Origin: a virus
Virus record (IMG/VR): IMGVR_UViG_3300031140_000019
Location: 1 to 34,462 of that record
Direction: 5' to 3' (one strand)
DNA length: 34,462 bases
Below, piece after piece: positions 1 through 15,187 of this stretch. Made by a program: the position numbers and the translations under genes. The notes under the pieces were generated by a model. The model ran no database searches and was not told where the DNA came from. It saw only the letters and a list, made by a program, of their open reading frames with translations. Every line of letters starts with the position of its first letter. Positions within the stretch are counted from its first letter, which is position 1.

Positions 1-2002
1 AATCAATATCCCACAGTTTATTTACTGTGCTTACTAACTTACTCTCTACTTCTACGACTACATCTATCATAGCCTGCTGCTCGTCAGGGTGTACATCCAC
101 CACCATACTATCATGAACTGTATTAACTATGCAACTTTTCAAACCCCTTTCATTCATTACCTTTTCCATCATCAGCATTGACACAGGCACAATATCTGCC
201 GTAGCGAATGACTGAACTGGATAGTTTTTAATCTTGGTAAAGTGAGTTACTGTACCATCCTTCCTTCTTGCCACATCGGGGAAGCTAAACTGCCTACCCG
301 AAGGTGTGGTAATCTTCCTCTCTGTTAAAGCTTCTGTGGCTAACTTCCTATGCCACTCAGCTATGCCCCTGTACTTCTTTAAGAAGTGAGTGTAGTACTC
401 AGCCTCCGCAGGTGTACGACCATAGCCAGAGGCACCATACAAGGGTGCAAAGGTATGCTCCTTAGCTGCCTGTCGTGAGATAGGCTGGCCTGCATCTGCA
501 ATAATGTCTGCTGTGTACTGGTGTACGTCAAATCCTTCAATGACTTCCTTGATAGCTAACTTATCCTGTGATAGGTAGGCTGCTGCACGAAACTCTAGCT
601 GCCCAAAGTCAGCCTCCATTATCTTACCTCCTTTCCATCGTGATATAAACACACGTTTAACTGGGAACGTACCACCCCTAGGCATGTTCTGCATGTTGGG
701 GTTACGGCCTGACATTCTAGCTGTCGAAGTTATGTGCTGTGTTAGCTGTACGTGTAGCATACCATCTGCCTTAGTAAACTTCTCAATGCCACCCACAAAG
801 GAGGACAAGTAAGATGATACAGCATTCAATCTACGTAGCTTGGCTAAGAAGTCAGCTTCACGTACCATGCCCTTACCTTTAGCTGCTGCCTCTAGTGTCT
901 CAAGGATACCCTTACCAGTACTGAATCCACTAGCACTAGCCCACGTAGCTTTAGGGGGTGAGAACTTAAGCCCTGCCAACACCTTAGTCTTAGTTAGTAC
1001 GTAACCCTGTCGTCCACATGACTTGCAGATGTTCTTGTTCTTACGAGGCACCCCTTTCTTAGTAAGATGCTGAACCATACCAGTGCCATTGCATACAACA
1101 CACTTGCTAGCCTTAGTCTTATAGACTGGCCCCGTCATAGACCGCACTGCATCCTTGAATGACGAGTCAGACATGAATGCATTGACTGTTTCAGCCCACC
1201 TCTTCTTGTCTACAACCTTCCGTGAGAAGACTAGGGTGGATAGCTGCTCTGGTGAATTGATGTTGATTGGTGTATCCCCCATCAGTTCCTCTACAAACTC
1301 CATCAGTTCTTCTTCTAAGGTTGCCCTCTCTTCTTCAAACTCTTTCTTTACCTTGGTTAGTTCTACTAAGTCTACCTTGATACCCCTCATATAGATAAGA
1401 GCTAACTCATAGCAGGTGTCCATAGTAATGTCTAACACAGACTGCATACTACTGTTCTCTGCATTAGCAAAACGTGCCATCTGTTTCTTGTAGACACCAA
1501 GAGTAGAACGCAAGTCATAGCGTAGGTACTCGTCTAGTTCATCAAAAGGAATATCCTTTGTAGATGTGCCAGACTTCCAGTAGTCAGACATAGTATCTAG
1601 CTTCTGCTCTTCCAGTTGATACTGGGCAGACACAAAGCCTAGGTTCAAGGGCGACTTGATACCCTTGTTAAGTATATACTCACCTAACATTGTGTCATAG
1701 ATCTTTCCAGAATAAGTGAACCCACATTCCCAGATCCACGTAAGGTCATGCACTGCGTTGTGACAGACCAGTAGCGTAGTAGCATCTAAGATGCCCTGAG
1801 TAATCACCTCTCCACCTACAGTAGGCTCCTCGTCTGAGTGTGTAAAGGTAACTACAGTTTCTATTCCTTTAACGGGCCTAGCTACTGTGTCTACCTGTAA
1901 CATACCTACCATTACTAATTCATTTTCTGCCTCAAAGGGGTCAAAGTGCTGCTTACCATCCCTTTTACAGGTGGTGTTCTCTACATCCAATACAGTAATC
2001 AT
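1..2002 (-). CDS. DNA polymerase, family A, with 3'-5' exonuclease (C-terminus cut by window edge)
   Basis: This is the replicative phage DNA polymerase. 667 codons are visible and the last few residues lie beyond the left edge. The exonuclease domain carries D6-x-E8, N82/D86 (HNAVHD) and Y159-x3-D163. The polymerase domain has motif A around D465 (ADFGQLEFR), motif B R510-x3-K514-x3-F518-x3-Y522, and motif C H630-D631-S632. The residue equivalent to E. coli Pol I 762 is Phe. Motif C ends in Ser where most family members have Glu; the two metal-binding Asp are kept. A Cys4 insertion (C301, C304, C326, C329, DnaJ-like CxxCxGxG) sits in the thumb, after the NINSPEQL motif. The ATG overlaps the stop of the endonuclease VII gene (ATGA), so the two are translationally coupled. 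Family assignment is certain; the zinc finger's function is unknown. Confidence 0.97.
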   Translation of the reverse strand, partial: MITVLDVENTTCKRDGKQHFDPFEAENELVMVGMLQVDTVARPVKGIETVVTFTHSDEEPTVGGEVITQGILDATTLLVCHNAVHDLTWIWECGFTYSGKIYDTMLGEYILNKGIKSPLNLGFVSAQYQLEEQKLDTMSDYWKSGTSTKDIPFDELDEYLRYDLRSTLGVYKKQMARFANAENSSMQSVLDITMDTCYELALIYMRGIKVDLVELTKVKKEFEEERATLEEELMEFVEELMGDTPININSPEQLSTLVFSRKVVDKKRWAETVNAFMSDSSFKDAVRSMTGPVYKTKASKCVVCNGTGMVQHLTKKGVPRKNKNICKSCGRQGYVLTKTKVLAGLKFSPPKATWASASGFSTGKGILETLEAAAKGKGMVREADFLAKLRRLNAVSSYLSSFVGGIEKFTKADGMLHVQLTQHITSTARMSGRNPNMQNMPRGGTFPVKRVFISRWKGGKIMEADFGQLEFRAAAYLSQDKLAIKEVIEGFDVHQYTADIIADAGQPISRQAAKEHTFAPLYGASGYGRTPAEAEYYTHFLKKYRGIAEWHRKLATEALTERKITTPSGRQFSFPDVARRKDGTVTHFTKIKNYPVQSFATADIVPVSMLMMEKVMNERGLKSCIVNTVHDSMVVDVHPDEQQAMIDVVVEVESKLVSTVNKLWDID

Positions 2003-2433
2003 AACTGCCCCCTAATATATTTAATTGCTCTCTGCATTCGTGGAACATCATCATTGAAGCAGCCCAGTGCTCTGTTGCAACTATGACAAAGCCAACCTCT
2101 GAAATCATCTGTCTTGTGACAATGATCTAACACCCATCTACCTGCACTACCCCCCTTACCCTCTGCCTGTGCTTCATCACATAAGCAAACAGGACACTCG
2201 TATCCTTCGGGAGGCTGTCCATGCAAATCCTTAAGCCCTTTACGTACCTTGGCTAAGTCGGAGGCACACACCTTACACTCTGGCCTTAGGTAACTACCAC
2301 CACTAGCCGTGGAGAAGGCACTTAGGGGTAGGATGTTAACACACTTAGAACATATCTTTGTGTCCTCACACTCAGGATGTGCTTCATATAACTCTATGTC
2401 CTCAATGAATAACTTCAGTTGTTCATACTCCAT
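1999..2433 (-). CDS. Endonuclease VII-like Holliday junction/branched DNA resolvase
   Basis: This is a structure-selective nuclease of the T4 endonuclease VII type, expected to resolve branched replication intermediates before packaging. From the chosen ATG it is 144 aa. An N-terminal zinc module (C28, C31, C53, C56) precedes the endonuclease VII core: C80-P-V-C83, then D103-H104-C-H106, then C116-x2-C119-N120, the usual zinc-bound His-Me finger. An in-frame ATG at 2451 would add 6 residues but has no SD. The ATG at 2433 has GGAAGG ten bases upstream and overlaps the end of the helicase gene by 11 bases. It lies between helicase and polymerase, as expected for a replication gene. Confidence 0.93.
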   Translation of the reverse strand: MEYEQLKLFIEDIELYEAHPECEDTKICSKCVNILPLSAFSTASGGSYLRPECKVCASDLAKVRKGLKDLHGQPPEGYECPVCLCDEAQAEGKGGSAGRWVLDHCHKTDDFRGWLCHSCNRALGCFNDDVPRMQRAIKYIRGQL

Positions 2434-3649
2434 ACCTTGCAATCCTTCCATCTAGCATACATGTAACCTTACCATGCCACCCTGATAGTTTATTCTTAGT
2501 TATGTTGATATGACGCATTGGATCTTCCATTGTATCATCCTCCCCAATGGCAGGGTTCTTTGCAATCAGTAGCATAAGGTCAGCCTCTGATGCCTTACCT
2601 GTCTTAGAACCTTCCATCATAGATTGATTAAGTATTACCTTGCCCTCTGCCTCTGCACTTAGCTGTGACATATAGAACATGGCACACCCATACTGCTTGG
2701 AAATGTCCCTAGCATAGATAGCATTAGCCTTGAGCATCATGTCCTCACGGGCAGCACCATTGAGCCTAGCAAACTTATCACCCATGTCTAGTACAACAAC
2801 GTCAGGTGTGTAGGATTTAATGACCGACTCAACCCATGCCATGTCCTTACCTGTGGCATCAATGAACTTAACATGATCCTTGATACGCTGGTACTTAGCA
2901 GTAGCTGCTGAAGGATTGTCCCGTATCTGATTGAGTGTCATACCTGTGGATGCATTGAGGTAACGTGCTGCTACCCTGTGTACTGCCTCCTCATTACATA
3001 ACACTAGACACTGTGCGCCCTGCTCTGCAAAACCTTTAGGGCCAGCAATGAATGACGCATGGCTAGAAGTCTTACCTGTCTCAGGTCTAGCACCTATCAT
3101 AATAAGGTGACCACCATTAACACCCTCCACCTTACGTGCCAAGGTAGGTAGGTTGAACGTCCACTGAGCCTCAAGGTCACTCTTCTTTAATAGATAATCC
3201 ATATCAATGTCAGCCCACTCAACCGATAGGTTAGGTGTGAAGTCCTCATTGTAATTATCTAGTATGGCACGTAGAGGTTCAAGAGATGCGTGTTCACCAT
3301 TGACGTATTCAAAGCCAAGGTTAGCTACCTCTTCTCCTACATGTTGTCGGAACATATCCGACAGTACATCACTGGCTATGTCCACACCCATGATAGCCTC
3401 ACGCTCTACCTTGTCAAAGATACCTTGATAGGAATCCTTCTGTGCTGTAGTGATCGTAGGGTTCTTAGAGAAGAACAGTGCCTCCACCTCTATGGGTGTA
3501 ACATCCCTGCCGTAGGTAGTAATGGCAGCATCAATGGTAGCCTTAACCTTGCGACCTTCCTTGCTGAATATACTGTTGGGGCAACGGATACCCTTGTGGT
3601 TATCATGGAAGTCTTTATCCATGAGTGTTCGTAGTAATGCTAATTCCAT
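2423..3649 (-). CDS. Replicative DNA helicase, DnaB/RecA-like
   Basis: A 408-aa hexameric-type helicase that would unwind DNA ahead of the polymerase. Walker A is G186-ARPETGK-T194, the catalytic acidic pair is N219-E220-E221, and Walker B is VVVLDMGD at 284-291. A sensor-like YMSQL follows near 327-331 and KNK near the C-terminus. The N-terminal 150 residues are helical and not the primase domain that T7 gp4 carries; primase is a separate gene here (5968-6738). The start ATG has GAGGAA seven bases upstream. Overlap with endonuclease VII and a shared operon with polymerase support the role. Confidence 0.95.
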   Translation of the reverse strand: MELALLRTLMDKDFHDNHKGIRCPNSIFSKEGRKVKATIDAAITTYGRDVTPIEVEALFFSKNPTITTAQKDSYQGIFDKVEREAIMGVDIASDVLSDMFRQHVGEEVANLGFEYVNGEHASLEPLRAILDNYNEDFTPNLSVEWADIDMDYLLKKSDLEAQWTFNLPTLARKVEGVNGGHLIMIGARPETGKTSSHASFIAGPKGFAEQGAQCLVLCNEEAVHRVAARYLNASTGMTLNQIRDNPSAATAKYQRIKDHVKFIDATGKDMAWVESVIKSYTPDVVVLDMGDKFARLNGAAREDMMLKANAIYARDISKQYGCAMFYMSQLSAEAEGKVILNQSMMEGSKTGKASEADLMLLIAKNPAIGEDDTMEDPMRHINITKNKLSGWHGKVTCMLDGRIARYGV

Positions 3650-3692
3650 AATATGTTCCTCATTGTATACATTGTGCAGTATGGCTTACACT

Positions 3693-3842
3693 TTAATGTA
3701 TAGCATGTATCTCTTTGATGGGGGAATGCTTCTTGTGCTTATGAAGTCTGTTACCTTCGCACACAGGGCATCCCTTGTTGTTACCGCAAGACCTACTTAC
3801 AGACTTACCCCCCGTCTTCTTCTTCTTCTTTGTTCTGCTCAC
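3693..3842 (-). CDS. 49-aa Lys/Cys/His-rich putative zinc-binding protein (GTG start)
   Basis: A short gene with a GTG start, easy to miss. The product begins MSRTKKKKKTGGKSVSRS and continues to C19-x5-C25-P-V-C28, followed by His at 33, 35 and 38, so it looks like a tiny zinc ribbon with a basic tail that could bind nucleic acid. Start choice: a near-perfect SD (AGGAGGGG) lies five bases before the GTG. It overlaps the 3' end of the upstream 100-aa gene by 38 bases in another frame and ends just before the helicase gene. Similar Lys-rich CPxC mini-proteins occur in other marine podoviruses (from memory). Function unknown. Confidence 0.8.
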   Translation of the reverse strand: MSRTKKKKKTGGKSVSRSCGNNKGCPVCEGNRLHKHKKHSPIKEIHAIH

Positions 3843-4107
3843 GCATACCCCTCCTGATCGCCCCTATAACCCCAAAGTGAAACAGGATGTTAAGTTCTTC
3901 ATCAGTCAACTCCACTGTCCGTGTATGCTTAGCAAAGGTGTTAGCTTCAAACTGTACTATTTCATCATGAACCTGCATCTGTGTGAGTACATAGTCTAGC
4001 CCCGATTGTACAAAGGAGGTTATCTCTTTCTCCTCTATATCCATATTCATTATACCTGAACCGTCTGCTTGATCCACTATTTCTAGTACTGTAATACCAT
4101 TGCTCAT
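3805..4107 (-). CDS. Conserved small acidic phage protein (100 aa), function unknown
   Basis: I do not recognise a function. The protein is acidic, with a predicted helical C-terminal half (LTDEELNILFHFGVIGAIRRGMREQ) and an EEEEDGG tail. The ATG has GGAGA seven bases upstream and overlaps the stop of the preceding 66-aa gene by four bases. The last 38 bases also encode the N-terminus of the 49-aa GTG-start protein, including its SD, so the two are probably coupled. Confidence 0.8.
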   Translation of the reverse strand: MSNGITVLEIVDQADGSGIMNMDIEEKEITSFVQSGLDYVLTQMQVHDEIVQFEANTFAKHTRTVELTDEELNILFHFGVIGAIRRGMREQNKEEEEDGG

Positions 4108-4304
4108 GGTCGTTTCTCCAATGTGTCTGCTGCAGAGTAAGATACATTATCACATGCCATTTCTTCCTTACCGCTCTGGTTCCATATGTCTACAACTGTG
4201 TTTAACCACGGCTTAAACTCATACCAATACCAATCTCCATCACTATCCATTGCTAAATAGTTAGCCCATGGCGGTGCGTCTGTCCAATCAGGTTTGTTCA
4301 TCAT
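4104..4304 (-). CDS. Small Trp-rich phage protein (66 aa)
   Basis: A short protein with the pattern KPDWTDAPPWANYLAMDSDGDWYWYEFKP, seen in small accessory proteins of many T7-like and marine phages; function unknown. GGGAGGT lies six bases before the first of two consecutive ATGs (4304 and 4301). It overlaps the end of the Mom-like gene by 17 bases and the start of the next gene by four. Confidence 0.85.
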   Translation of the reverse strand: MMNKPDWTDAPPWANYLAMDSDGDWYWYEFKPWLNTVVDIWNQSGKEEMACDNVSYSAADTLEKRP

Positions 4305-4887
4305 TACATACCTCCCATCTACACTTCAATTGTTTATCATACACTAGTAAGAACCGATGCTTCCTAGACCTATCACGCCACTCACCTTTGAGTAACTTCA
4401 TTGGCCCTCTTGTATGCTTCACATAAGACCCATCATCCTGCTCTATCCAGAAGTCTTTCTTTGCTGCACTTAGCCCATAGTACTTGAAGTTACAGGCTCT
4501 GTATATAGTACCCTGATGATGGTTGCTATCTGCATAACTGAGCAGTGCCTTAACCTTGGTGTCCTTACGTAGCTGCCTCATTGCCTTTGCAACAAACCAA
4601 CTGGTCAGGTTGTGTTCAGTACCCTGTACTTTAGGGTGTAGGCATAGCCTTGATAGCTCAAACAGACCTTCCTGCTGTGTCCTCTCTAACCCAAAGCAAC
4701 CCTTGGCTAACTCAGGTACAGGGAAGCCAGTGAAGACTATGGCACCTACAAGTTCAGTGCCACACATAAGGCCATAGTTGTACCCACTCTTGAACCCCTT
4801 GGATTCATCCTTGAGGTAATGATATTTGAGTAGGATACAGGCTGCTTCTTTCTTGGTGATTGTTACAATACTGTAATCTTCTTTCAT
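4288..4887 (-). CDS. Mom-like DNA-modification protein (GNAT-fold family candidate)
   Basis: A 199-aa protein resembling phage Mu Mom, which converts adenine in phage DNA to an N6-carbamoylmethyl form and so blocks host restriction. Supporting features are the N-terminal HYLKDESKGFKSGYNYGL stretch, the strand ELVGAIVFTGFP (45-56), the ELSRLCLHP element (77-85) and the C-terminal SYADSNHHQGTIYRACNF (117-134), which matches the Mom hallmark of Ser-x-Ala-Asp followed by GTIYxAxxF. The alternative is another GNAT acetyltransferase of unknown substrate. It sits in the replication operon immediately upstream of small conserved genes, consistent with modification of newly made DNA. No Com-like regulator is seen. 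Family recognised by eye, not by search. Confidence 0.7.
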   Translation of the reverse strand: MKEDYSIVTITKKEAACILLKYHYLKDESKGFKSGYNYGLMCGTELVGAIVFTGFPVPELAKGCFGLERTQQEGLFELSRLCLHPKVQGTEHNLTSWFVAKAMRQLRKDTKVKALLSYADSNHHQGTIYRACNFKYYGLSAAKKDFWIEQDDGSYVKHTRGPMKLLKGEWRDRSRKHRFLLVYDKQLKCRWEVCNDEQT

Positions 4888-4905
4888 ATGTCACCCCCCA
4901 TCTCA

Positions 4906-5133
4906 TTACGTACCGGTAGTATAAGAAGCTATATCGTCAAACAAATTGTAGTAGTTAACAGCAGAAGCAACACTGCTCCCACCCCTGCCTATGGCAAGGC
5001 CGCACTCTCTATAGCTCAGTCCAGAAGCACGTAGCTTCACTACTTCTGCTAACTCCCCCTTAGAAAAGGCCTCAAGTACACCCTCTGTCTTACGTAGATG
5101 GTCACCTATCTTAGGCGCGAAGACTATGCTCAT
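4906..5133 (-). CDS. Small HTH protein, paralogue B (75 aa)
   Basis: A probable DNA-binding protein. It opens MSIVFAPKI and carries a predicted helix-turn-helix in the segment ELAEVVKLRASGLSYRECGLAIGRGGSSVASAVNYYNL. It is clearly paralogous to the gene directly upstream (5130-5402), sharing the MSIVFxPKI start and the G(L/F)S...GRGG/HRGQGG...A(V/I)N core. Its ATG overlaps the upstream stop (ATGA). It could regulate phage transcription; no target is established. Confidence 0.82.
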   Translation of the reverse strand: MSIVFAPKIGDHLRKTEGVLEAFSKGELAEVVKLRASGLSYRECGLAIGRGGSSVASAVNYYNLFDDIASYTTGT

Positions 5134-5402
5134 GCCATTATCCCCTCAAGAAGTTCTTTTCTTTTTGTTCGTATCTCACTATGTAGATTGTGATGGTTAA
5201 TAGCGTTAGCTACACCACCCTGACCCCTGTGTATAAGCTTACTAATTTGGATGAAAGAAAAGCCATGAACCCGTAGGGTTACTAACCTTTGCAACTCCTG
5301 CTTTGTGTACAGGTGTTTCCTACGCTCCACTACATCCTTCTTAGGGGGTGCCTTAGATCCAGAAAATACCTCAGATATTTTAGGCTTAAATACAATGCTC
5401 AT
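5130..5402 (-). CDS. Small HTH protein, paralogue A (90 aa)
   Basis: A tandem paralogue of the 75-aa protein downstream. It begins MSIVFKPKI, has a longer basic linker (about residues 16-30) and an HTH-like core ELQRLVTLRVHGFSFIQISKL, then a conserved GGVANAINHHNL. The C-terminus is basic. It overlaps both neighbours by four bases (ATGA). The linker and tail lengths differ between the copies, so the duplication is not recent. It is a candidate regulator or nucleoid-type DNA-binding protein. Confidence 0.82.
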   Translation of the reverse strand: MSIVFKPKISEVFSGSKAPPKKDVVERRKHLYTKQELQRLVTLRVHGFSFIQISKLIHRGQGGVANAINHHNLHSEIRTKRKELLEGIMA

Positions 5403-5620
5403 TTTAAATCCTCCGAATTAATGTCCACTATAACACAGTGAGGACTGATACCCTGTTTAATTCTATCCTTAGGGCGAGTGTCTTCTCCAATAGGAACAAT
5501 GTCTTCTTCAATAGGAACAACCTTACCAACGAAGATATTGTTAAAGTTGTCTTGGTACTCGGACGATGTTTGAACCTTAGTCTTGATCTCGTCACCTGTT
5601 ATGTCGTTCTTTGTAGTCAT
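5399..5620 (-). CDS. Hypothetical protein (73 aa) with a short internal repeat
   Basis: I do not recognise it. The protein is polar and acidic with an internal duplication, VVPIEED-IVPIGED, about residues 34-47, also visible as a direct DNA repeat at about 5489-5522. It is held in a run of ATGA overlaps with the genes on each side, which supports it being translated. Confidence 0.7.
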   Translation of the reverse strand: MTTKNDITGDEIKTKVQTSSEYQDNFNNIFVGKVVPIEEDIVPIGEDTRPKDRIKQGISPHCVIVDINSEDLK

Positions 5621-5868
5621 GATGCATCCTCCTTAGAGTTACCATTTAACCATTCAATATATTCATCAGGAGTCATGAAGTCTTCAATGACTACCGCCAA
5701 TGCCTTGAGTACAACTTGGTTATGCTTAAAGTCTTTAGGGTGAGTGCTGGTATCCTCTTGGAAGACGCTAACTATATCATAGTAACCCTTCAGTCCTTCC
5801 TTGAGTAGGATGTCCAGTACTTCATCTGTGAATACTTTACCAATTGCTTCTAATGCTGTTGCACTCAT
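5617..5868 (-). CDS. Hypothetical protein (83 aa)
   Basis: Unrecognised, predicted mostly helical, with acidic surfaces and no signal peptide or membrane segment. The ATG overlaps the stop of the 36-aa membrane protein (ATGA) and the stop overlaps the next ATG, so it belongs to a coupled string of small genes downstream of primase. Confidence 0.75.
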   Translation of the reverse strand: MSATALEAIGKVFTDEVLDILLKEGLKGYYDIVSVFQEDTSTHPKDFKHNQVVLKALAVVIEDFMTPDEYIEWLNGNSKEDAS

Positions 5869-5975
5869 GATCCTACTCCTGCTGCTTTAGTTATTAATTT
5901 AATTGTAACATACCCTGCAAAACCTAAGAAACCTATGTACACCACACCTCTTAGAAACTCCTTCAAGTTATCCAT
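5865..5975 (-). CDS. 36-aa single-pass membrane protein
   Basis: A tiny gene between primase and the 83-aa protein. The product starts MDNLKEFLRG, has one hydrophobic segment (about residues 11-27, VVYIGFLGFAGYVTIKL) and ends TKAAGVGS. AGGAGA lies upstream with suitable spacing. The ATG overlaps the primase stop by eight bases and the stop overlaps the next ATG (ATGA). This packing is the main evidence for translation. Function unknown; its site in the replication operon makes a membrane anchor or host-takeover role as likely as lysis. Confidence 0.72.
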   Translation of the reverse strand: MDNLKEFLRGVVYIGFLGFAGYVTIKLITKAAGVGS

Positions 5976-6738
5976 CACTCATTCTCCTAAGGTTATCAAG
6001 GTCAACTTCTAACCTATATTTAATATCATCTTCTAACTTCAATGCTACTGCTTTCTTTATGTGCCTACGTAGTTCCTTAACATGTTGTAGGGATTTCAAT
6101 GAAGCATCAGGGTCTAAGGCAACGATAACCGTATCATAAGCATTCAATGCTACAGCATGGCTCTCCATTAAGCTAGTACCCAGTAACGCTACACCTACAT
6201 AACCCTCTGAGGCACACACACTAGCACTGATAGCATCCTCCACTACCACTGCAACACTGCCAGTGCCTACGATGAATGGCATACCTGAACCACCATACCG
6301 CTTCCACTTAGGTGTCACCACCTTGTTCAATGTACGACCTGTTGCATCATACAGTATGTGATTCTTCTTGATAGGGAATATAACTCTACTGTCTTTGATG
6401 TCCCACAGGTGTGTACCTTCATTGAGTATACCCCAGTATTCAAGCCAATCAGTGGCCTCCTTAGGTAAGTTGCGTGACACACTCAGTGGGAACTCAATAG
6501 GTTCAATTGTAATGTGATCCCTATCATTACCCTGCATCAACCTTCTAATGTCACTAGCAGATAGACTACCTTCAAACATACCCCTAGCACCGCATGAGGC
6601 ACTAAAGCATTGCCACTTGAGAACACCCATATCATTGGAAGCACCAAAGGTATTCCTTCTATGGCATGTAGGACAATCTGTTCTAACTGAATGGCCAATA
6701 GGCAGTTCCATATCAACTACGTGTTGTCTTATGTTCAT
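5968..6738 (-). CDS. DNA primase (zinc ribbon plus Toprim)
   Basis: Makes RNA primers for lagging-strand synthesis. In the 256-aa form the N-terminal zinc ribbon has C22-x2-C25 and C44-x4-C49, and the Toprim domain has the catalytic E167 (VVVEDAISAS) and D209-P-D211 (VALDPDAS). It corresponds to the primase half of T7 gp4, here free of the helicase. A GTG at 6744 would overlap the upstream stop, but the ATG at 6738 has GAGGGG at proper spacing and is preferred. It follows an HNH endonuclease gene, whose last codons carry the primase SD. Confidence 0.93.
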   Translation of the reverse strand: MNIRQHVVDMELPIGHSVRTDCPTCHRRNTFGASNDMGVLKWQCFSASCGARGMFEGSLSASDIRRLMQGNDRDHITIEPIEFPLSVSRNLPKEATDWLEYWGILNEGTHLWDIKDSRVIFPIKKNHILYDATGRTLNKVVTPKWKRYGGSGMPFIVGTGSVAVVVEDAISASVCASEGYVGVALLGTSLMESHAVALNAYDTVIVALDPDASLKSLQHVKELRRHIKKAVALKLEDDIKYRLEVDLDNLRRMSDG

Positions 6739-6740
6739 GC

Positions 6741-7217
6741 TCACCCCTCTTCTATTACGTGATACTTTCTCTTGGCTCTAAGGTATGCTGCTCTGGCATC
6801 TAGGATGTTGTCATACACCCCTAGATTTATCTGCTTATTGTTAAGCACAATGTATGCCCTCCACATTTCTAGCCTAGCGATATAAGAAGCTCCTAATGCC
6901 CTAGTTTCATTGAAATGGTTACCCTGATTAGTAACCGCCCTAAGATTCTCTATTCTATTATCGTGTTTGTCCCCGTTAATATGATCAATCTGTAGAGACT
7001 GATCCATATCAGGATTATGATATAGGTATATTAATCTATGCTCTAGTAGTAGAACTCCTTCAAATGATATATTTCTATATCTTTGTTTTGAGACTGGCCT
7101 TCTACCTCTATTTGCCCACGTTGCACATGGGTTTATTCTTATAAGCTCCCCCTCTTTGTAGTTAAATGTGGATCTTATGTTTGCTGTTTGTATTATTTTA
7201 GTTGGCGATCTTCTCAT
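6741..7217 (-). CDS. HNH homing endonuclease with AP2 DNA-binding domain
   Basis: A 158-aa free-standing homing endonuclease. The HNH core runs from about H60 (EHRLIYLYHN) through D78-H79-I-N-G-D to N88 and N100-H101. A C-terminal AP2-like domain (about 109-152, GASYIARLEMWRAYIVLNNKQINLGVY) would recognise DNA. Such genes spread by cutting uninfected alleles and commonly sit beside replication genes, as here just upstream of primase. GGGAG precedes the ATG. The gap upstream (7218-7312) carries its own promoter-like and hairpin sequences, consistent with insertion as a unit. Confidence 0.9.
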   Translation of the reverse strand: MRRSPTKIIQTANIRSTFNYKEGELIRINPCATWANRGRRPVSKQRYRNISFEGVLLLEHRLIYLYHNPDMDQSLQIDHINGDKHDNRIENLRAVTNQGNHFNETRALGASYIARLEMWRAYIVLNNKQINLGVYDNILDARAAYLRAKRKYHVIEEG

Positions 7218-7247
7218 ACTACTCCCATACTACTTAGTACACTAGCT

Positions 7248-7284
7248 ATGTTACACTGGCGGTGGGGGTAACGGAGTGTAGCAT
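7248..7284. repeat. 10-bp inverted repeat with 17-nt loop
   Basis: ATGTTACACT (7248-7257) pairs with AGTGTAGCAT (7275-7284) over 10 positions with one G-T wobble, enclosing 17 bases. Neither strand has a T-run, so it is not an ordinary terminator. It fills most of the gap between the 71-aa gene and the HNH gene. Confidence 0.6.
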
Positions 7285-7303
7285 GGATATGAACACCCGT
7301 CAA
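7275..7303 (-). promoter_or_regulatory. Candidate sigma70 promoter for the HNH-primase segment
   Basis: On the minus strand TTGACG (7298-7303) and TACACT (7275-7280) are separated by 17 bases, in the 95-bp gap before the HNH gene. The -10 half overlaps the 3' arm of the 7248-7284 inverted repeat. No other evidence of activity. Confidence 0.45.
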
Positions 7304-7312
7304 CCTATTTAG

Positions 7313-7528
7313 TTACAACCGTTTACTTCTAGCTACAGCTTCAATGATATGCTTAATCAAATTGGTAGCATGAGTCCTGTCACGTACCCTATGCTCTGAT
7401 TCCAGTGAAGTCACCTCCTGTACTGAGTAGATGTTCTTCAAGGATAAATACTCCTCCTCTGTGTCTAATGTAACTACTACTTGTATGGGAATCCATGCAG
7501 CTGCTGTCATGTCTACTGATGCTTTCAT
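7313..7528 (-). CDS. Hypothetical protein (71 aa)
   Basis: Unrecognised. The N-terminal half (AAAWIPIQVVVTLDTEEEYLSLKNIY) looks like a beta strand plus helix; the C-terminus is basic (ARSKRL). GGAGAA lies upstream at good spacing and the ATG overlaps the previous stop by four bases. Confidence 0.72.
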   Translation of the reverse strand: MKASVDMTAAAWIPIQVVVTLDTEEEYLSLKNIYSVQEVTSLESEHRVRDRTHATNLIKHIIEAVARSKRL

Positions 7529-7827
7529 AATTGTTCTCCATGCTTTAATAATCGGTATGGCCCTGTCCTTAGGTCATGCGTGAGCTTCTCTAAGACAGCC
7601 TCTGTGATGCTTTCAACACTACCTAATACCTCAGTTAGGTTGTCCAGTCCTTTCACCTCTAAGGTGACTAGCTTGGCTACAACCTGCCCTAGTGTAGCAT
7701 GGTAGGTTCGTATCTCATTAACAGGATACAGCCCCGTCTTCTCACTCAGTGTCTTAGAAGTAGTACTATGCACTAATGTCCAGTTGTACCTATCTGATTC
7801 AATACGATAATTGTCTGCTACTTTCAT
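7525..7827 (-). CDS. Hypothetical protein (100 aa)
   Basis: Unrecognised with confidence. The N-terminal pattern NYRIESDRYNWTLVHSTTSKTLSEKTG resembles small phage proteins of the DUF5405 kind, but this is only a visual likeness. The rest is helical. GGAG sits before the ATG, three bases after the integrase stop. Confidence 0.72.
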   Translation of the reverse strand: MKVADNYRIESDRYNWTLVHSTTSKTLSEKTGLYPVNEIRTYHATLGQVVAKLVTLEVKGLDNLTEVLGSVESITEAVLEKLTHDLRTGPYRLLKHGEQL

Positions 7828-7830
7828 ACG

Positions 7831-8721
7831 TTACTCCTTGCTATTCCATCGTGCTTGAAGTGCCATCGTTGAACTCTTCAAGGTGTTCTTCATGTAAGGC
7901 TTAACACTAGCAGGATTGGCATGACCTGTAACAGCCATGATCTGTGGTAAGTCTACCCCTGCCTCCACTAACTCTGTTGTACCTGTCCTACGCATGTCCC
8001 TGATCTGTAACTTATCAGAGATACCCGATGCATCACGTACTATCTTAGCCTGTACTGATAAGCCTCGCATACTGTATGGCTGGTATAAACTACCCACTGG
8101 CCTAGGTCTAGGTGCTATCCACTTCTGGAAGCCAAAGTCCTCATGCTGTTTCTTTAGCATAGCCTGTAGTCCTACTGACGTTGGTAAGGTTACCTCTGCA
8201 CCTCGCTTGCTCTGTTCAAGTATAAGTGTACCTGATTCCAGATCATATTGCGACCATTCCAATAACCGCATATCCCCCTGACGTTGGCACCACTCATAGG
8301 ACATTTGAACTATCAGACCTACGTTGCGCCACTTAAACTTTCCATATGCAGTGTTAAGGTACTGCGCTATGTCAGTGTCAGACCATACCACCTTACGTGG
8401 GGGTAGTGACCTGCGCTTTATGTAGGCAAAGGGGTTATGGTTCACACTGCCTAGTCGTATACTATGACCAAACACAATAGACCCAATACCTACCACATGG
8501 TTAGCCATTGATACGCCACTACTAAGTAAATACTCATAAGCTTTCTGTGACATAGGTGTGTTGATCTTGCTCGGATCCATAAACCCGAACAGTTTGCCCC
8601 CTACGGGTACACTACCTAGTCGTGCTGCCCAGTAGATGTAGTCACGTTGAGTGTTAGCCTTACATGCATTGAAGTCAAAGGATTCAAAGTATTCAGCACA
8701 TAGATCATTGAATGTCTTCAT
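7831..8721 (-). CDS. int: Tyrosine recombinase / phage integrase
   Basis: A 296-aa site-specific recombinase expected to join phage and host DNA through a Tyr-DNA intermediate. Catalytic residues are R147 (CQRQGD), K172 (QSKRG), R244 (in RDMRRTG), H267 (TGHANP) and the nucleophile Y276 (VKPYMKNT), nine residues after H267 as is usual. The His of box II is replaced by Arg (R241), a substitution seen in other phage integrases. The N-terminal part (about 5-100) looks like a SAM-like core-binding domain. GGAG precedes the ATG. It is co-oriented with the replication genes and has no excisionase or classical repressor neighbour. An attP site cannot be identified from one sequence. Confidence 0.93.
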   Translation of the reverse strand: MKTFNDLCAEYFESFDFNACKANTQRDYIYWAARLGSVPVGGKLFGFMDPSKINTPMSQKAYEYLLSSGVSMANHVVGIGSIVFGHSIRLGSVNHNPFAYIKRRSLPPRKVVWSDTDIAQYLNTAYGKFKWRNVGLIVQMSYEWCQRQGDMRLLEWSQYDLESGTLILEQSKRGAEVTLPTSVGLQAMLKKQHEDFGFQKWIAPRPRPVGSLYQPYSMRGLSVQAKIVRDASGISDKLQIRDMRRTGTTELVEAGVDLPQIMAVTGHANPASVKPYMKNTLKSSTMALQARWNSKE

Positions 8722-8722
8722 A

Positions 8723-8905
8723 TTACTTACTCCTAAACTTATTGAGCCACGCTTCCTCTAGCTTAGACGAGCCTTCTACCCATCTAAAGTGTTTCTCGTC
8801 CAACTCGTACCAATTGGTCTTAGATAGCCGTAGGTATACAGGCTCTACATCTTCAAAGCTTACTGTGTTAGCTGCCCACTGGCTAACATCTTCTACTTTC
8901 AACAT
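8723..8905 (-). CDS. Hypothetical protein (60 aa)
   Basis: Unrecognised, Trp-rich with a charged C-terminal half (YELDEKHFRWVEGSSKLEEAW). GGAGG lies four bases before the ATG. It overlaps the end of the upstream gene by seven bases and ends one base before the integrase ATG. Confidence 0.75.
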   Translation of the reverse strand: MLKVEDVSQWAANTVSFEDVEPVYLRLSKTNWYELDEKHFRWVEGSSKLEEAWLNKFRSK

Positions 8906-9177
8906 ACATCCTCCAGTACAATCTGTTGAGGTGGAGTCTCCAATAGGAAACCCCTTGCCTTAGTCATAATAATATCTACTTGCCATACCTCATAGCCAAA
9001 GGCCATGATCTGCTCTTGCATTGAATCCCAGTACTTTGAGCCTTGATACTTTCTTAGGTAGCCTAAAGGATTACGCCTACTTGGGGATACCTCGGCTACC
9101 TTAATAGAATCTACATACACTCGTACATAGCTACGGTTATCCTTGACACCATTGGTGTTACTTATCTTGATGTTCAT
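8899..9177 (-). CDS. Hypothetical protein (92 aa)
   Basis: Unrecognised. I take the ATG at 9177 (MNIKISNTNG) because AGGAGA lies seven bases upstream; reading on to an earlier in-frame ATG at 9231 would translate the conserved palindromic repeat at 9197-9221. It is a basic, likely beta-rich N-terminal region followed by a Tyr/Trp-rich segment. Confidence 0.75.
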   Translation of the reverse strand: MNIKISNTNGVKDNRSYVRVYVDSIKVAEVSPSRRNPLGYLRKYQGSKYWDSMQEQIMAFGYEVWQVDIIMTKARGFLLETPPQQIVLEDVC

Positions 9178-9196
9178 GTGTTCTCCTGTATACCAC

Positions 9197-9221
9197 TTCG
9201 TTGACTGAATTCCGTCAATGG
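9197..9221. repeat. Palindromic repeat copy 1
   Basis: The core TTGACTGAATTCCGTCAA lies at 9201-9218, flanked by TTCG and TGG as in the four other copies. It sits between the stop of the DUF932-like gene and the ATG of the 92-aa gene. Probable operator; see copies 2-5. Confidence 0.85.
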
Positions 9222-9223
9222 AT

Positions 9224-10075
9224 TTAACCAAATGCTAACTCTTGAAAGGCATCACCCTTAACGATAGCTCCAATCTTATCTTCCATCACCAACTGCTTCT
9301 TGGTAGTGCAAGCCTCAGACTCAACGTGAGTACTTAGGTGAGTCAGTGTGTTATACACACGATACGCATTATCACCTAGGTTATAGTTATCATGTATCCC
9401 CATGATACGATTAAGCATTGTGTAATTAATCTTGCTAGATGCCCGTGTCCTAGTAGTAGCTAGATGCTCTATATAGAAGTCTATAGCATCACCCCTACCA
9501 ACGAAAACTTCTTGCATCTTCTTCATCTTGCCAGCATCTTCCAGTAAAAGTGTAGGCCATTGTGCTGCCACCTTACCTATACGCTCAGGGTTAGCACCTT
9601 GAGTATGTAATTGAGATAGGCTAGTGTTCTCTGCCATTGACACCATGCCATTGAGACAAGCAAGGCGCATAATCATAGCACCAATCTGTCTACGCTGGGT
9701 TTGGTCATGACTATCTACAATGCGAATCTTAAGGCAGCTAGGCTCACCCAAGGCTTCCACAAAGTTTTGATTAGGCAAAGTAATCTCAGCCCTCATACCT
9801 GCATTGTTGTTAAATGTATTGAATGTGGTGGTCACACCATCTAACTGTAAACCAGAGTGGTACAAGCCCTCCCGTAAAGAATCCCACATGATAGAGAAAT
9901 TCTGTGGGTTATGGTTACGTTTTCCATCACCAATAACTTCATCAGTGTTAGGGTTAACAGTCCACCATTTACCATCTACTAAAGCACCATTGCGAGTCTG
10001 TTGCTCACGTATTGGTGCAAAGTCTAGGTAATCAGGTAAAGCTGGTAGTGTATGTATCTTGGTTAGTGCATTCAT
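9224..10075 (-). CDS. DUF932-like phage/plasmid protein
   Basis: A 283-aa protein resembling the DUF932 'phage/plasmid-like' family, of unknown function. The diagnostic parts are KIRIVDSHDQTQRRQIGA followed by MRLACLNGM (family pattern: Asn/Asp-Ser-hydrophilic, then RLxCxNGM) and, near the C-terminus, NAYRVYNTLTHLSTH. An earlier in-frame GTG at 10108 lies inside a hairpin; the ATG at 10075 with AAGGA upstream is chosen. Family assignment is by pattern only. Confidence 0.75.
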   Translation of the reverse strand: MNALTKIHTLPALPDYLDFAPIREQQTRNGALVDGKWWTVNPNTDEVIGDGKRNHNPQNFSIMWDSLREGLYHSGLQLDGVTTTFNTFNNNAGMRAEITLPNQNFVEALGEPSCLKIRIVDSHDQTQRRQIGAMIMRLACLNGMVSMAENTSLSQLHTQGANPERIGKVAAQWPTLLLEDAGKMKKMQEVFVGRGDAIDFYIEHLATTRTRASSKINYTMLNRIMGIHDNYNLGDNAYRVYNTLTHLSTHVESEACTTKKQLVMEDKIGAIVKGDAFQELAFG

Positions 10076-10093
10076 GATATGGATTTCCTTATA

Positions 10094-10124
10094 GGATATA
10101 GGCCCCACAGTGGGTGACCTATCC
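10094..10124. repeat. Hairpin in the leader of the DUF932-like gene
   Basis: GGATATAGG and CCTATCC pair (with a two-base bulge) around an inner CCCA-CAG-TGGG stem. On the minus strand this sits just upstream of the AAGGA SD of the DUF932-like gene. On the plus strand it is followed by AGTTAGTTTTTG, a weak terminator-like tail. mRNA stability or antisense termination are both possible. Confidence 0.5.
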
Positions 10125-10139
10125 AGTTAGTTTTTGTCC

Positions 10140-10385
10140 CTATTTGGGAGGGTTAAAGTAAATTTCACGCTGGTTTATTGAGTGGCCTATTTTCGCAACA
10201 ATCATAATCTGATAATCATAATAGGGGCTAACTTCCTCGTCTGAGGTGCCGTAAGGGTATGAATGACGTTCTTTGGCAGAGGCTAAAGCATCCTCATATG
10301 TGCTAAATACCCCACAACCTCCCGCATTAAATCCCAGCTCATTCATAGCAAGTTCACTGTCTAGAACGATATATAATTTATTCAT
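10140..10385 (-). CDS. Hypothetical protein (81 aa)
   Basis: Unrecognised. The ATG at 10385 overlaps the stop of the winged-helix-like gene (ATGA), which decides the start over an upstream TTG. It has a beta strand start (NKLYIVLDSELAM), a GGCGVF turn and an Ala/Glu helix. It may cooperate with its coupled neighbour. Confidence 0.72.
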   Translation of the reverse strand: MNKLYIVLDSELAMNELGFNAGGCGVFSTYEDALASAKERHSYPYGTSDEEVSPYYDYQIMIVAKIGHSINQREIYFNPPK

Positions 10386-10744
10386 AGTAAGCCACAAGCG
10401 TTAAGCTCATTTAGTAAGCGGCTACCCTTTGGAGTTAGATACACTAACTTTTCACGGTAGTCTTCCTCGTTAGGTAAACGGCTAATTAAGTTAAGTGCTG
10501 GTGTACGTTCCCCATTACCTAGTGAGCGTCCAACAGACATTTCTAATAGATCATTGTAGCCATTTGGCCCTACCTTAAGACCTACCTTAGTCAAGATTAC
10601 ATTAAGTGGCTGGCCTTGTGTGGCTAACACCTGCTTAAGTATAGTCTTACGCATTTCAGTACGAGCTGCGCTCAGCTTAATATTGAAAGTGCCTACGTTA
10701 GTGCTAGTTGTAGTTGCTACTGCTTTGATTGCTAATTTAGTCAT
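10382..10744 (-). CDS. Putative winged-helix (MarR-like) DNA-binding protein (120 aa)
   Basis: The C-terminal segment (about residues 88-115, SRLPNEEDYREKLVYLTPKGSRLLNEL) matches the wing and last helix of MarR-type winged helices (DxRxKxVxLTxKG). The helical middle could supply the recognition helix. It is the first gene after a consensus-like promoter (10805-10833) that is decorated with AAGTGTA repeats, so it is a good candidate autoregulator. The N-terminus shares MTKLx with the first gene of the operon (13542-14144). DNA binding is inferred, not shown. Confidence 0.72.
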   Translation of the reverse strand: MTKLAIKAVATTTSTNVGTFNIKLSAARTEMRKTILKQVLATQGQPLNVILTKVGLKVGPNGYNDLLEMSVGRSLGNGERTPALNLISRLPNEEDYREKLVYLTPKGSRLLNELNACGLL

Positions 10745-10804
10745 AATAATTACTCTCTTTATTTTATAGTGGGCGAGTTATCCTGCCCTTGATTACTGAT
10801 TACC

Positions 10805-10833
10805 ATTCTAACAAGTGTACTTACCCTTGTCAA
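10805..10833 (-). promoter_or_regulatory. Strong sigma70 promoter with AAGTGTA operator repeats
   Basis: On the minus strand TTGACA (10828-10833), 17-base spacer, TAGAAT (10805-10810). Two copies of CAAGTGTA (plus-strand reading) lie at 10812-10819 in the spacer and at 10831-10838 over the -35. The promoter lies inside the last codons of the 51-aa gene and would drive the winged-helix-like gene and all downstream early genes. Confidence 0.7.
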
Positions 10834-10963
10834 GTGTACTTCTTTCTAGCAATAAATCTTCTATGGTTACCCGTATTGCAAAAGCCTTACGAGTCTTTAT
10901 TTTGATATGTGCTGCCTTAATCATGGCAATACGCTTGGCTTGCTTGGTTGTATATACGGTCAT
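10808..10963 (-). CDS. 51-aa basic protein
   Basis: A short gene with an excellent SD (GGGAGGTGATAGC then ATG). The product starts MTVYTTKQAKRIAMIKAAHI, is strongly basic and probably helical, and ends DKGKYTC. The ATG overlaps the preceding stop (ATGA). Its final codons contain the promoter for the winged-helix-like gene. Function unknown; it could bind nucleic acid. Confidence 0.8.
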   Translation of the reverse strand: MTVYTTKQAKRIAMIKAAHIKIKTRKAFAIRVTIEDLLLERSTLDKGKYTC

Positions 10964-11145
10964 GCTATCACCTCCCTTTCATATGCTGCATCATCCAGCG
11001 AATCCAACCATTTATTATAGGCTGCATCTGCTGCCTTACTATAGTACATAAGATCTGCAAATGTTATGCGGTTAAACTCATAGGCAGCAAGTGCCTTTTC
11101 ATGGTCACGCCTTGTTGCATTCTTGTTTTCTTTTAGTGTACTCAT
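10960..11145 (-). CDS. Hypothetical protein (61 aa)
   Basis: Unrecognised, charged, helical (MSTLKENKNATRRDHEKALAAYEF...). Overlaps of four bases at both ends place it in the same translationally coupled string as its neighbours. Confidence 0.75.
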   Translation of the reverse strand: MSTLKENKNATRRDHEKALAAYEFNRITFADLMYYSKAADAAYNKWLDSLDDAAYEREVIA

Positions 11146-11561
11146 TCTGTGTACCCCTCTATGAATTTCTTAAACTCTGGGACAGTACCACTAAATATGC
11201 TATCGTCCCACTCATACACTACCACCTTAATAACATCATCCGTAACCACAATGGCATAGGTGAAATTATTATCAAACTCAACACCCACCATAGGAGGCTC
11301 AATATAAATACCACCTACCCCTACTTTAAAGTGTGCCACCATCTGTGCAGCCAGACAGCCTGCGCCATTGGCTTGCTTAATTTGGCTGTTAGTGAAGCCA
11401 TTAACTACCTCAATAGGTTCAAGGAATTTCAGTAGCTCCATACCATGCCCCTCTGGATAGCCGTCCATCTGGCGATACATATTTAAAATCTGTACATCCT
11501 TGGTGCCTTCATAGCCAACATCATATTTACCAATTACAAGCGTGTTTGATCTAGTACCCAT
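11142..11561 (-). CDS. Conserved phage protein with MGTRS...YRQxDGYPEGHG motif
   Basis: A 139-aa protein of a family common in marine and enteric phages, recognised by the N-terminal MGTRSNTLVIG and the YRQMDGYPEGHGMELLKFL segment (about 29-47). Function unknown. The C-terminal half has beta-strand-rich hydrophobic segments (YAIVVTDDVIKVVVYEW). It overlaps the 61-aa gene by four bases. Confidence 0.82.
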   Translation of the reverse strand: MGTRSNTLVIGKYDVGYEGTKDVQILNMYRQMDGYPEGHGMELLKFLEPIEVVNGFTNSQIKQANGAGCLAAQMVAHFKVGVGGIYIEPPMVGVEFDNNFTYAIVVTDDVIKVVVYEWDDSIFSGTVPEFKKFIEGYTE

Positions 11562-11562
11562 G

Positions 11563-11766
11563 TTACACCTCCACTAAGGTTAATTTGTAGAACAGGTCTT
11601 CTGACAAGTCTACTTCGCTAAAGGCTACATGGTAAGACTCACCTGATTCTTCACCCTCACCTAAGAAATACCCCTCTTCACCTATAGTGGCAACAATAAG
11701 CATTGCCTCACAGTTAAGCGGTATATATATGTAGGAACTCTCTACAATACTTTGAATTAAACTCAT
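11563..11766 (-). CDS. Hypothetical acidic protein (67 aa)
   Basis: Unrecognised. An acidic Gly/Glu stretch (GEEGYFLGEGEESGESYH) separates two hydrophobic strands. It ends one base before the next ATG. Confidence 0.7.
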   Translation of the reverse strand: MSLIQSIVESSYIYIPLNCEAMLIVATIGEEGYFLGEGEESGESYHVAFSEVDLSEDLFYKLTLVEV

Positions 11767-11827
11767 AACCTATACTCCAATATATGCCTTGTAAGCTCCT
11801 GTAGTGCTCTCTAAGGCGTTTTAAGGT

Positions 11828-11850
11828 GGCACCCCTACCTAGGGTATGCC
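11828..11850. repeat. Hairpin after the 35-aa membrane protein gene
   Basis: GGCAU/GUGCC and CCCU/AGGG pair (minus-strand reading, one bulged A, loop AGGT). The minus-strand tail is ACCTTAAAAC, not a U-run. The plus-strand tail TTTAGTTTA is more terminator-like, so it may stop antisense transcription. Confidence 0.4.
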
Positions 11851-11856
11851 TTTAGT

Positions 11857-11964
11857 TTACATTGAGCTGTAATAGCCCATTAAAAGAATGCCCATGATTA
11901 GCACGTTAAGTGCTGCAAGTAATACTAGACACCCAGTGGTAACCCAATATTCTAATTCATTCAT
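11857..11964 (-). CDS. 35-aa single-pass membrane protein
   Basis: The tiny product MNELEYWVTTGCLVLLAALN continues into one hydrophobic helix (about residues 8-31) and ends YYSSM. GGAG lies eight bases before the ATG, right at the stop of the 62-aa gene. The first five codons repeat those of that gene. Function unknown; a membrane-active early protein is plausible. Confidence 0.68.
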   Translation of the reverse strand: MNELEYWVTTGCLVLLAALNVLIMGILLMGYYSSM

Positions 11965-11969
11965 GTTAG

Positions 11970-12158
11970 TTACTCCATTTGCTCAGTTAAATGTCTGTAA
12001 ATATCTAACCATTGCAGTGGGGTTAACAATCCTAGTGCTTCAATAGATTGCAGCAAGTTAGAATCAGTTTCCATAGTGGCTAGGTACTTTTTAGATACAA
12101 CTGTAGTAAGGCTGTTCTTTTCTTGTGCTGCCATGATAGCCGCTTCTAATTCATTCAT
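11970..12158 (-). CDS. Hypothetical protein (62 aa)
   Basis: Unrecognised, helical (MNELEAAIMAAQEKNSLTTV...). GGAG lies upstream of the ATG. Its translation-start region (GGAGTA...ATGAATGAATTAGAA) is a near copy of that of the 35-aa gene that follows. Palindromic repeat copy 2 lies 27 bases upstream. Confidence 0.72.
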   Translation of the reverse strand: MNELEAAIMAAQEKNSLTTVVSKKYLATMETDSNLLQSIEALGLLTPLQWLDIYRHLTEQME

Positions 12159-12184
12159 ACTATGTACTCCAGTTTATTATGTAA

Positions 12185-12209
12185 TTCGTTGACTGAATTC
12201 CGTCAATGG
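12185..12209. repeat. Palindromic repeat copy 2
   Basis: Core TTGACTGAATTCCGTCAA at 12189-12206 in the 102-bp gap upstream of the 62-aa gene. Like copy 4, it is followed on the plus strand by AATTGG. Confidence 0.85.
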
Positions 12210-12260
12210 AATTGGTTTAATCAGTAACACTAGGTACTAACCTAATGCTACCTGTTAAGC

Positions 12261-13133
12261 CTACGCTGCAATAAATGTATCTTGCTTTGCCGCTCGGACA
12301 AATCCCGTATTCGTACCCACTACCCTTGCTTTTCCCTTAGCAGTAAGGCCCACAATTACACCTTTAATATCGGTATACCTCACATCGTGCTTATCTCCGT
12401 TGATAACTGCAAAGCGTTGCCCACCTAAAGTGTAGAATTCAGGCAGTGGTTGACCACGTTTAGTATCAAACACTACCGCCACGTTAACCCCATTCCGTAA
12501 CTGCAAAACAGCATCTGTCTCATTGTTTTCAGATAGGCTAAAGGTAAATGTATAGAATGGCCTTGAGGTGTCGCGTCTAGGGTTTTTTGTGTAGTCATAG
12601 ATAGGCATTAAAGGTGCCAGTAAATGTATCATATCAATGATGGGCATTCGGACACCTCCAAAGGTACACGAATACTTTTCATATGGTATATCACTAGTCA
12701 TATTGGGGCGCATCGCAAGTGTTACAAAATCCCGCGCTGCCTTTTTTATTTCTCGCTGCAATTCCTTTACAAGTAAGGCAAGGAATAAAGGCCTATTTTC
12801 AAAGAACAATCTAGTTTTAGCAATCCTACTTTTGGTTTTTGCATCTAAATACGCTGGGTTACCTGCAGAGTGCAAACAAAATGCCTCACAATCTGGTGAC
12901 GCATCAGCACAAACCTGATAACCAGACATTTTAGCTGGTGCCATGTTTACAGGTAGGGTGCGCACCTTTAGTTCAACGGCACTCTTTAGGATTTTAGGGT
13001 TTGCCATTGCATCGCCTATGATAGGGCCAAGCACTGGCATAAACTCACTAGGGAATTTCTTACTAGTATGTACACGGGCCAACCTACGCAATGCAGCATA
13101 GGACATAGTTAAATAAGTATCTAAAGTATTCAC
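12261..13133 (-). CDS. GP88-family phage protein
   Basis: A 290-aa protein of the mycobacteriophage gp88-like family found in phages and plasmids, function unknown. The signature is KMSGYQVCADASPDCEAFCL (C75, C82, C86 from the chosen start) followed by HSAGNPAYLDAKTKSRIAKT and LFFENRPLFLALLVKELQ. The clustered Cys suggest metal binding. I choose the GTG at 13133 with AAGGTGG six bases upstream, just after the stop of the 68-aa gene; a TTG 18 bases earlier is less likely. The two genes appear to form a pair. Confidence 0.82.
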   Translation of the reverse strand: MNTLDTYLTMSYAALRRLARVHTSKKFPSEFMPVLGPIIGDAMANPKILKSAVELKVRTLPVNMAPAKMSGYQVCADASPDCEAFCLHSAGNPAYLDAKTKSRIAKTRLFFENRPLFLALLVKELQREIKKAARDFVTLAMRPNMTSDIPYEKYSCTFGGVRMPIIDMIHLLAPLMPIYDYTKNPRRDTSRPFYTFTFSLSENNETDAVLQLRNGVNVAVVFDTKRGQPLPEFYTLGGQRFAVINGDKHDVRYTDIKGVIVGLTAKGKARVVGTNTGFVRAAKQDTFIAA

Positions 13134-13134
13134 G

Positions 13135-13341
13135 TTACACCACCTTGGCAATTAAGCCGTTAATCATCGTTACTTGAGCAAAGAATTCTCTACCCTGACC
13201 CGTTATGTGAGGGCGGTTTGCACCTACCATAGTGCCGTTTGATACATACTCAGCACCAAATAAAGACGTTTCAATAAAGCGTAATTTCTCCCCTACGTTT
13301 TCCTTCAATACTTTTTTACTAGGATAATTAAAAATAATCAT
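13135..13341 (-). CDS. Small partner protein of the GP88-family gene (68 aa)
   Basis: The product begins MIIFNYPSKKVLKENVGEKL and contains RFIETSLFGAEY, a pattern I recall next to GP88-type genes in other phages. It probably works with that protein. AAGGTGG precedes the ATG. Its leader contains palindromic repeat copy 3 and a good promoter. Confidence 0.78.
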   Translation of the reverse strand: MIIFNYPSKKVLKENVGEKLRFIETSLFGAEYVSNGTMVGANRPHITGQGREFFAQVTMINGLIAKVV

Positions 13342-13359
13342 GTTGCCACCTTTTGTGAT

Positions 13360-13384
13360 TTCGTTGACTGAATTCCGTCAATGG
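13360..13384. repeat. Palindromic repeat copy 3
   Basis: Core at 13364-13381, between the 13413-13442 promoter and the ATG at 13341, so it would be in the 5' leader of that transcript. Confidence 0.85.
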
Positions 13385-13412
13385 ATTTTGCTAATTCATA
13401 AATTGATAAGCC

Positions 13413-13442
13413 ACTATAGCAAGTGGCACTTACACTTGTCAA
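13413..13442 (-). promoter_or_regulatory. Sigma70 promoter for the GP88 pair, with AAGTG repeats
   Basis: Minus strand TTGACA (13437-13442), 18-base spacer, TATAGT (13413-13418). The spacer and -35 contain CAAGTG-type elements arranged as AAGTG-C-CACTT plus a further AAGTGTA. Confidence 0.7.
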
Positions 13443-13462
13443 TAGCACCTCATTTGTTTACT

Positions 13463-13487
13463 TTCGTTGACTGAATTCCGTCAATGG
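13463..13487. repeat. Palindromic repeat copy 4
   Basis: Core at 13467-13484, about 55 bases downstream of the first early gene and upstream of the 13413-13442 promoter. Confidence 0.85.
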
Positions 13488-13541
13488 AATTGGGTATAAT
13501 CTAGGGTACTGATACACAATACCCTATGATATAACCACTAT

Positions 13542-14144: not shown

Positions 14145-14200
14145 AATATATACTCTTTTATTTAGTTAGTTAACTTAACTTGATTAGCTAAGATGTGCCT

Positions 14201-14229
14201 ATCTTAAAACAGCTAACATACACTTGCAA
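14201..14229 (-). promoter_or_regulatory. Early promoter for the minus-strand operon
   Basis: Minus strand TTGCAA (14224-14229), 17-base spacer, TAAGAT (14201-14206). AAGTGT motifs lie at 14220-14226 (inverted), 14246-14252, 14263-14269 and 14277-14283. Transcription would start about 50 bases before the ATG at 14144. Confidence 0.6.
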
Positions 14230-14286
14230 CCACTATTGATCAATTAAGTGTAACTAATTTCTAAGTGTATGATTTACAAGTGTTAA

Positions 14287-15179: not shown

Positions 15180-15187
15180 TGTATAAC

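Follow-up and report, generated by a model that had tools for sequence, protein, structure and literature searches.

Among the known systems closest to the gene studied here is mom of phage Mu (NP_050657.1; PDB 8bv8), which forms part of the com-mom module at the genome's late end. In this module the Com zinc-ribbon gene is located just upstream of mom and overlaps it, and an RNA hairpin hides the mom ribosome-binding site. Mom enzymes load a bulky group onto adenines in their phage's own DNA, which host restriction enzymes then fail to cut. The product of Mu Mom is N6-methylcarbamoyl adenine (PMC8281217). In jumbo phages, Mom domains are fused to restriction-like nucleases and have been proposed to protect phage DNA (PMC7824862). 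Here we describe a Mom-family gene in a 34,462-base IMG/VR virus record (hereafter the window, meaning the whole stretch of DNA analysed). The window is probably a fragment of a phage genome, related isolates being 53–56 kb. Unlike the jumbo-phage fusions the window Mom is stand-alone, and in contrast to Mu its gene lies in a replication operon with no overlapping Com gene. The explanation that fits best, and which we hold to be probable, is a replication-coupled adenine hypermodification enzyme, with Mu-type or close chemistry, that would shield virion DNA from restriction.

A Mom-family gene among phage replication genes

Phages of the HMO-2011 type rank among the dominant groups of marine viruses. 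The portal protein of the window was 65% identical to those of HMO-2011 and CRP-1 over 98–99% coverage, and on this sequence basis the window phage is assigned to the HMO-2011-type marine podoviruses. Its gene content (integrase, Toprim protein, DnaB, polymerase A, terminase, portal) fits this type. The features surrounding mom were as follows.

1–2002, minus strand: DNA polymerase family A (PF00476, 165 bits), truncated at the window edge
1999–2451, minus strand: endonuclease VII-like nuclease (PF02945, 49.3 bits)
2423–3649, minus strand: DnaB-like replicative helicase (PF03796, 36.6 bits; PHROG 19, E = 1.9e−39)
4104–4304, minus strand: downstream gene, 66 aa, matching PHROGs of unknown function
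4288–4887, minus strand: mom, Mom-family (GNAT-fold) DNA modification protein, 199 aa
4888–4905, minus strand: 18-nt gap before mom, with a purine-rich, ribosome-binding-like stretch GGGGGGTGAC ahead of the ATG
4906–5133, minus strand: upstream gene, 75 aa, without a Pfam or PHROG match
5968–6744, minus strand: Toprim-domain protein, primase-like by a weak match (Toprim_3, E = 7e−4, below the Pfam cut-off)
6741–7217, minus strand: HNH endonuclease, homing type by similarity
7831–8721, in the minus-strand run: integrase

The order along the minus strand was integrase, HNH endonuclease, Toprim protein, mom, DnaB-like helicase, endonuclease VII-like nuclease and polymerase A; small unknown genes separate mom from its neighbours in this list, four on the Toprim side and two on the helicase side. 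Intergenic gaps were mostly −29 to +18 nt, with larger ones of 155, 99 and 95 nt between helicase and integrase. The initial annotation had placed mom in a lytic-gene operon, but its same-strand flanks are replication genes (Toprim-like, DnaB-like, endonuclease VII, DNA polymerase A), and judged by this gene order mom sits in an early replication operon. The start of the 66-aa downstream gene, which is absent in relative L003, overlaps the 3′ end of mom by 17 nt. The close relatives L002–L004 have mom in the same setting, next to the helicase, polymerase and endonuclease VII genes, and in L004 ThyX lies upstream. The HNH endonuclease gene is itself inserted in the replication operon and has a 4-nt overlap with the Toprim gene.

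The mom reading frame is complete from ATG to stop, and both Mom-type signatures claimed in the initial annotation were found in the protein, as GTIYRACNF (fitting GTIYxAxxF) and ELSRLCL (fitting ELxRLxL). A profile search assigned the protein to the Mom family and to no other GNAT family. PF25680 (Mom) matched at 90 bits (E = 2.1e−25; curated cut-off 27.1 bits) and was the sole Pfam family at E ≤ 0.1; it also scored 87.3 bits in a separate six-frame search. PHROG 1384, ‘Mom-like DNA modification protein’, matched at E = 5.9e−34, and NCBIfam gave no match. At the sequence level, these signature and profile matches are far above chance. The ORF is a genuine, ordinary member of a widespread and already known family; tblastn at E ≤ 1e−5 picked up relatives in 172 phage records, and at E ≤ 0.01 in 211. 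Most members of this family are known only via annotation.

In the tree, the window Mom belonged to a separate marine clade with good support and a long branch. A pattern scan confirmed at least 392 relatives in viral contigs, and among contigs of 84,980 species of bacteria and archaea a second scan found two that carry marine-clade mom, both from MAGs; the two scans ran different patterns, which makes the contrast a qualitative one. The clade is almost entirely viral.

Predicted structure, active site and substrate

An AlphaFold2 model built from 52 window and viral-contig sequences (pLDDT 91.1, pTM 0.84) had Mu Mom (8bv8) as its best Foldseek match (E = 1.4e−10), the next GNAT protein following at 7.8e−6. 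In VIA-align, 8bv8 aligned with Z 18.3 (rmsd 3.1, 180 residues) and the next GNAT with Z 14.1 (139 residues). By sequence alone 8bv8 was also the best PDB match (E = 5.8e−4; profile E = 3.4e−4).

Conservation of the active site was assessed in an alignment of the window protein with Mu Mom and 18 other members, which contained 14 invariant columns. These included H23, R80, D120 and Y129, corresponding to Mu H58, R111, D149 and Y159 (241-aa numbering; subtract 10 for the 231-aa form), positions that we take to act in catalysis. The nearly invariant S96 aligned with Mu S124. This correspondence is fixed by the 8bv8 entry, which is titled ‘inactive mutant S124A’ and whose chain reads NSEA where the Mu sequence reads NSES. 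The C-terminal third has diverged from that of Mu, and a clade-specific region (FWIEQxDGSYVKHSRGP...KHRFLLVYDK) stands in place of the Mu-like one.

Since identity to Mu Mom is only ~22%, the enzyme might use another donor, make another product or recognize another sequence than Mu Mom does. An enzyme of the Mom family modifying DNA with a non-Mu chemistry (another acyl or aminoacyl group, base or sequence context) would be consistent with this low identity, with the separate clade and with the replaced C-terminal region. We nonetheless regard such an enzyme as rather unlikely, as the window protein retains each of the five active-site positions that were compared with Mu and the closest fold is Mu Mom itself. 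SASNY, which we take to be the Mu Mom target context, occurred at 1825 sites versus 2047 expected, a count that is confounded by codon usage and was therefore set aside.

The gene neighbourhoods of mom in other phages also bear on its substrate. Across 36 T4-like-type environmental contigs, the gene directly upstream of mom fell into one BLAST cluster (40 loci counting any position), whose representative was the gp32 single-strand binding protein (PF08804, 163 bits). The Moms of such contigs (e.g., L030 and L027) belong to the same marine clade as the window Mom, share ~60% identity with it and likewise lie beside a replication gene, but their setting is that of a T4-like myovirus, with mom placed between a gp32-like gene and a gp53-like one. 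Adjacency to the DNA polymerase gene was observed in Enterococcus phage Vaquero and Salmonella virus VSiA, adjacency to a helicase gene in K64-1 and Lupine, and in Microbacterium phage Lifes one gene separated mom from DNA polymerase. In two unrelated phages, a DNA methyltransferase was directly upstream of mom.

L005, 5218–5919: DNA adenine methyltransferase, D12 class, directly upstream of Mom
L019 (Phynn), 1794–2474: annotated DNA methyltransferase, directly upstream of Mom

This association with replication genes was recurrent, not universal, because A511, ICP1, S-SSM7 and DillTech15 had no replication gene adjacent to mom. It supports action on replicating phage DNA, although position by itself does not reveal timing.

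The fold match alone would not tell a DNA substrate from a protein substrate. Many protein N-acetyltransferases have this fold at Z 12–14, and some phage relatives of mom carry the annotation ‘acetyltransferase’ only. Still, we consider it very unlikely that the protein is an ordinary GNAT acetyltransferase acting on protein, tRNA or a small molecule, unrelated to DNA modification. Pfam gave Mom alone, Mu Mom scored 4 Z units over every other GNAT, the gene is located in a replication operon, and DNA methyltransferases adjoin Mom in the two phages listed above.

For the favoured hypermodification enzyme, the following sequence of events is envisaged. The GNAT-fold protein would act on adenines in double-stranded DNA and attach a bulky N6 group, most likely the carbamoylmethyl that Mu Mom adds or one chemically close to it. 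Translation from the early replication operon would allow the DNA to be modified while phage genomes accumulate, unlike the late, Com-dependent modification in Mu, and the packaged DNA would be resistant to host restriction endonucleases.

Mom and Mom-MazG in HMO-2011-type phages

A whole-record search of 13 HMO-2011-type records detected Mom in one only, Roseobacter phage CRP-212, where it was unannotated.

CRP-212 (MZ892988, L011), 10342–10920: Mom, 62% identical to the window Mom
CRP-212 (L011), 10342–11274: Mom plus C-terminal MazG in a single open frame (PF03819, 37 bits; cut-off 22)

In GenBank, only gp15 (10525–11274) is annotated, as MazG; its start lies inside Mom and the Mom start was missed. 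The annotated MazG start is an in-frame GTG in CRP-212 and an ATG in L007, so a separate MazG may also be made from this internal start. L026 had the same Mom-MazG layout, as did L007–L009, with a more diverged MazG-like domain below the Pfam cut-off. The paper in which CRP-212 is described makes no mention of Mom or DNA modification (PMC9038755), and among open papers we found no earlier report of Mom-MazG.

The CRP-212 and window Moms both belong to HMO-2011-type podoviruses but occupy different genomic places, that of CRP-212 being flanked by gp14, a small gene upstream, and by the gene for ribonucleotide reductase, and they group apart in the tree, whose resolution does not extend to the deeper order. 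Two acquisitions of Mom by HMO-2011-type phages are likely. As no MazG was found in the window, this fragment does not have the Mom-MazG arrangement. CRP-3, isolated on the same strain as CRP-212 (FZCC0040), has MazG alone at the locus (L119, 2508–3114) matching CRP-212 10119–11274, and this MazG was 86% identical to the MazG part of CRP-212. The CRP-3 locus is thus a natural site without Mom. We tentatively propose, as a possibility that is on balance doubtful, that the marine Mom clade is a Com-free part of the replication programme which entered HMO-2011-type phages at least twice, and that one lineage gave rise to a two-domain Mom-MazG protein coupling DNA hypermodification to nucleotide-pool control.

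The patchy occurrence of Mom in these phages bears on two further readings. In one, Mom marks phage DNA whilst a phage nuclease, such as the endonuclease VII-like protein, attacks unmarked host DNA, combining offence and defence. We give this very little credence: endonuclease VII relatives are junction resolvases, the protein is unfused here and is accounted for by replication, and Mom is missing from 12 of the 13 related isolates and records. In its favour are the presence of the nuclease gene in the mom operon and the jumbo-phage fusions, for which the same role has been proposed (PMC7824862). A decaying, non-functional Mom gene, compatible with this patchiness, is hardly credible given an intact ORF, the neighbourhood shared by L002–L004, retained active-site positions and low dN/dS (0.038 versus L003, 0.078 versus L004). 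The dN/dS values indicate strong purifying selection and thus that mom is kept for its protein.

If Mom is active as a hypermodification enzyme, some abundant ocean phages would carry hypermodified adenines, which would affect both their host range against restriction and their appearance in nanopore or amplification-based viromes. The claim can be tested directly, because four isolates with sequenced genomes were all grown on FZCC0040: CRP-212 has Mom, and CRP-3, CRP-207 and CRP-235 lack it. Beyond the window gene itself, some value is added by the CRP-212/CRP-3 pair and by the reading frame that joins Mom to MazG.

Expression of mom and a repeated 26-bp element

A search with the Com profile (PF10122) returned nothing at E ≤ 10 within the 34-kb window, in agreement with the initial annotation, which had noted that Com was lacking there. 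Nor was a stable hairpin hiding the ribosome-binding site predicted at the mom start region (fold versus shuffles, z = 0.27 for one sequence only). Given this, and the purine-rich stretch ahead of the ATG, control of mom probably lies with the operon. The numbers of sigma-70 promoters and terminators in positions 1–16000 were not above those in shuffled sequences, and therefore no promoter is claimed for mom.

Upstream of the mom region, a 26-bp oriented element (minus strand, TCCATTGACGGAATTCAGTCAACGAA) was present ahead of early genes, in five copies between 9197 and 14312.

9197–9222, 12185–12210, 13360–13385, 13463–13488 and 14287–14312, minus strand: copies of the 26-bp element, all in the same orientation and holding TTGACGGAATTCAGTCAA

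The copies were identical except for that at 14287, which differs at its first base, and only 0.01 chance matches to the 18-bp core were expected. Three of the five lie 22–30 nt ahead of start codons, and the same element was found ahead of different genes in the related contigs L121–L124. It is possibly an operator, an RNA element or a promoter specific to the phage. Between mom and the closest copy of the element (9197–9222), which lies ~4.3 kb upstream, all genes are on the minus strand, and any link between the element and mom control is speculation.

Elsewhere in the window, the early region encodes a GP88 family protein (12261–13151; PF17338, 94 bits). A tail-fibre-like protein with several near-identical repeats (SIDLVHMSANSVDSDQYVDG) is encoded at 30444–32933, and a 2OG-Fe(II) oxygenase gene at 33648–34202, close to the right end of the structural region.
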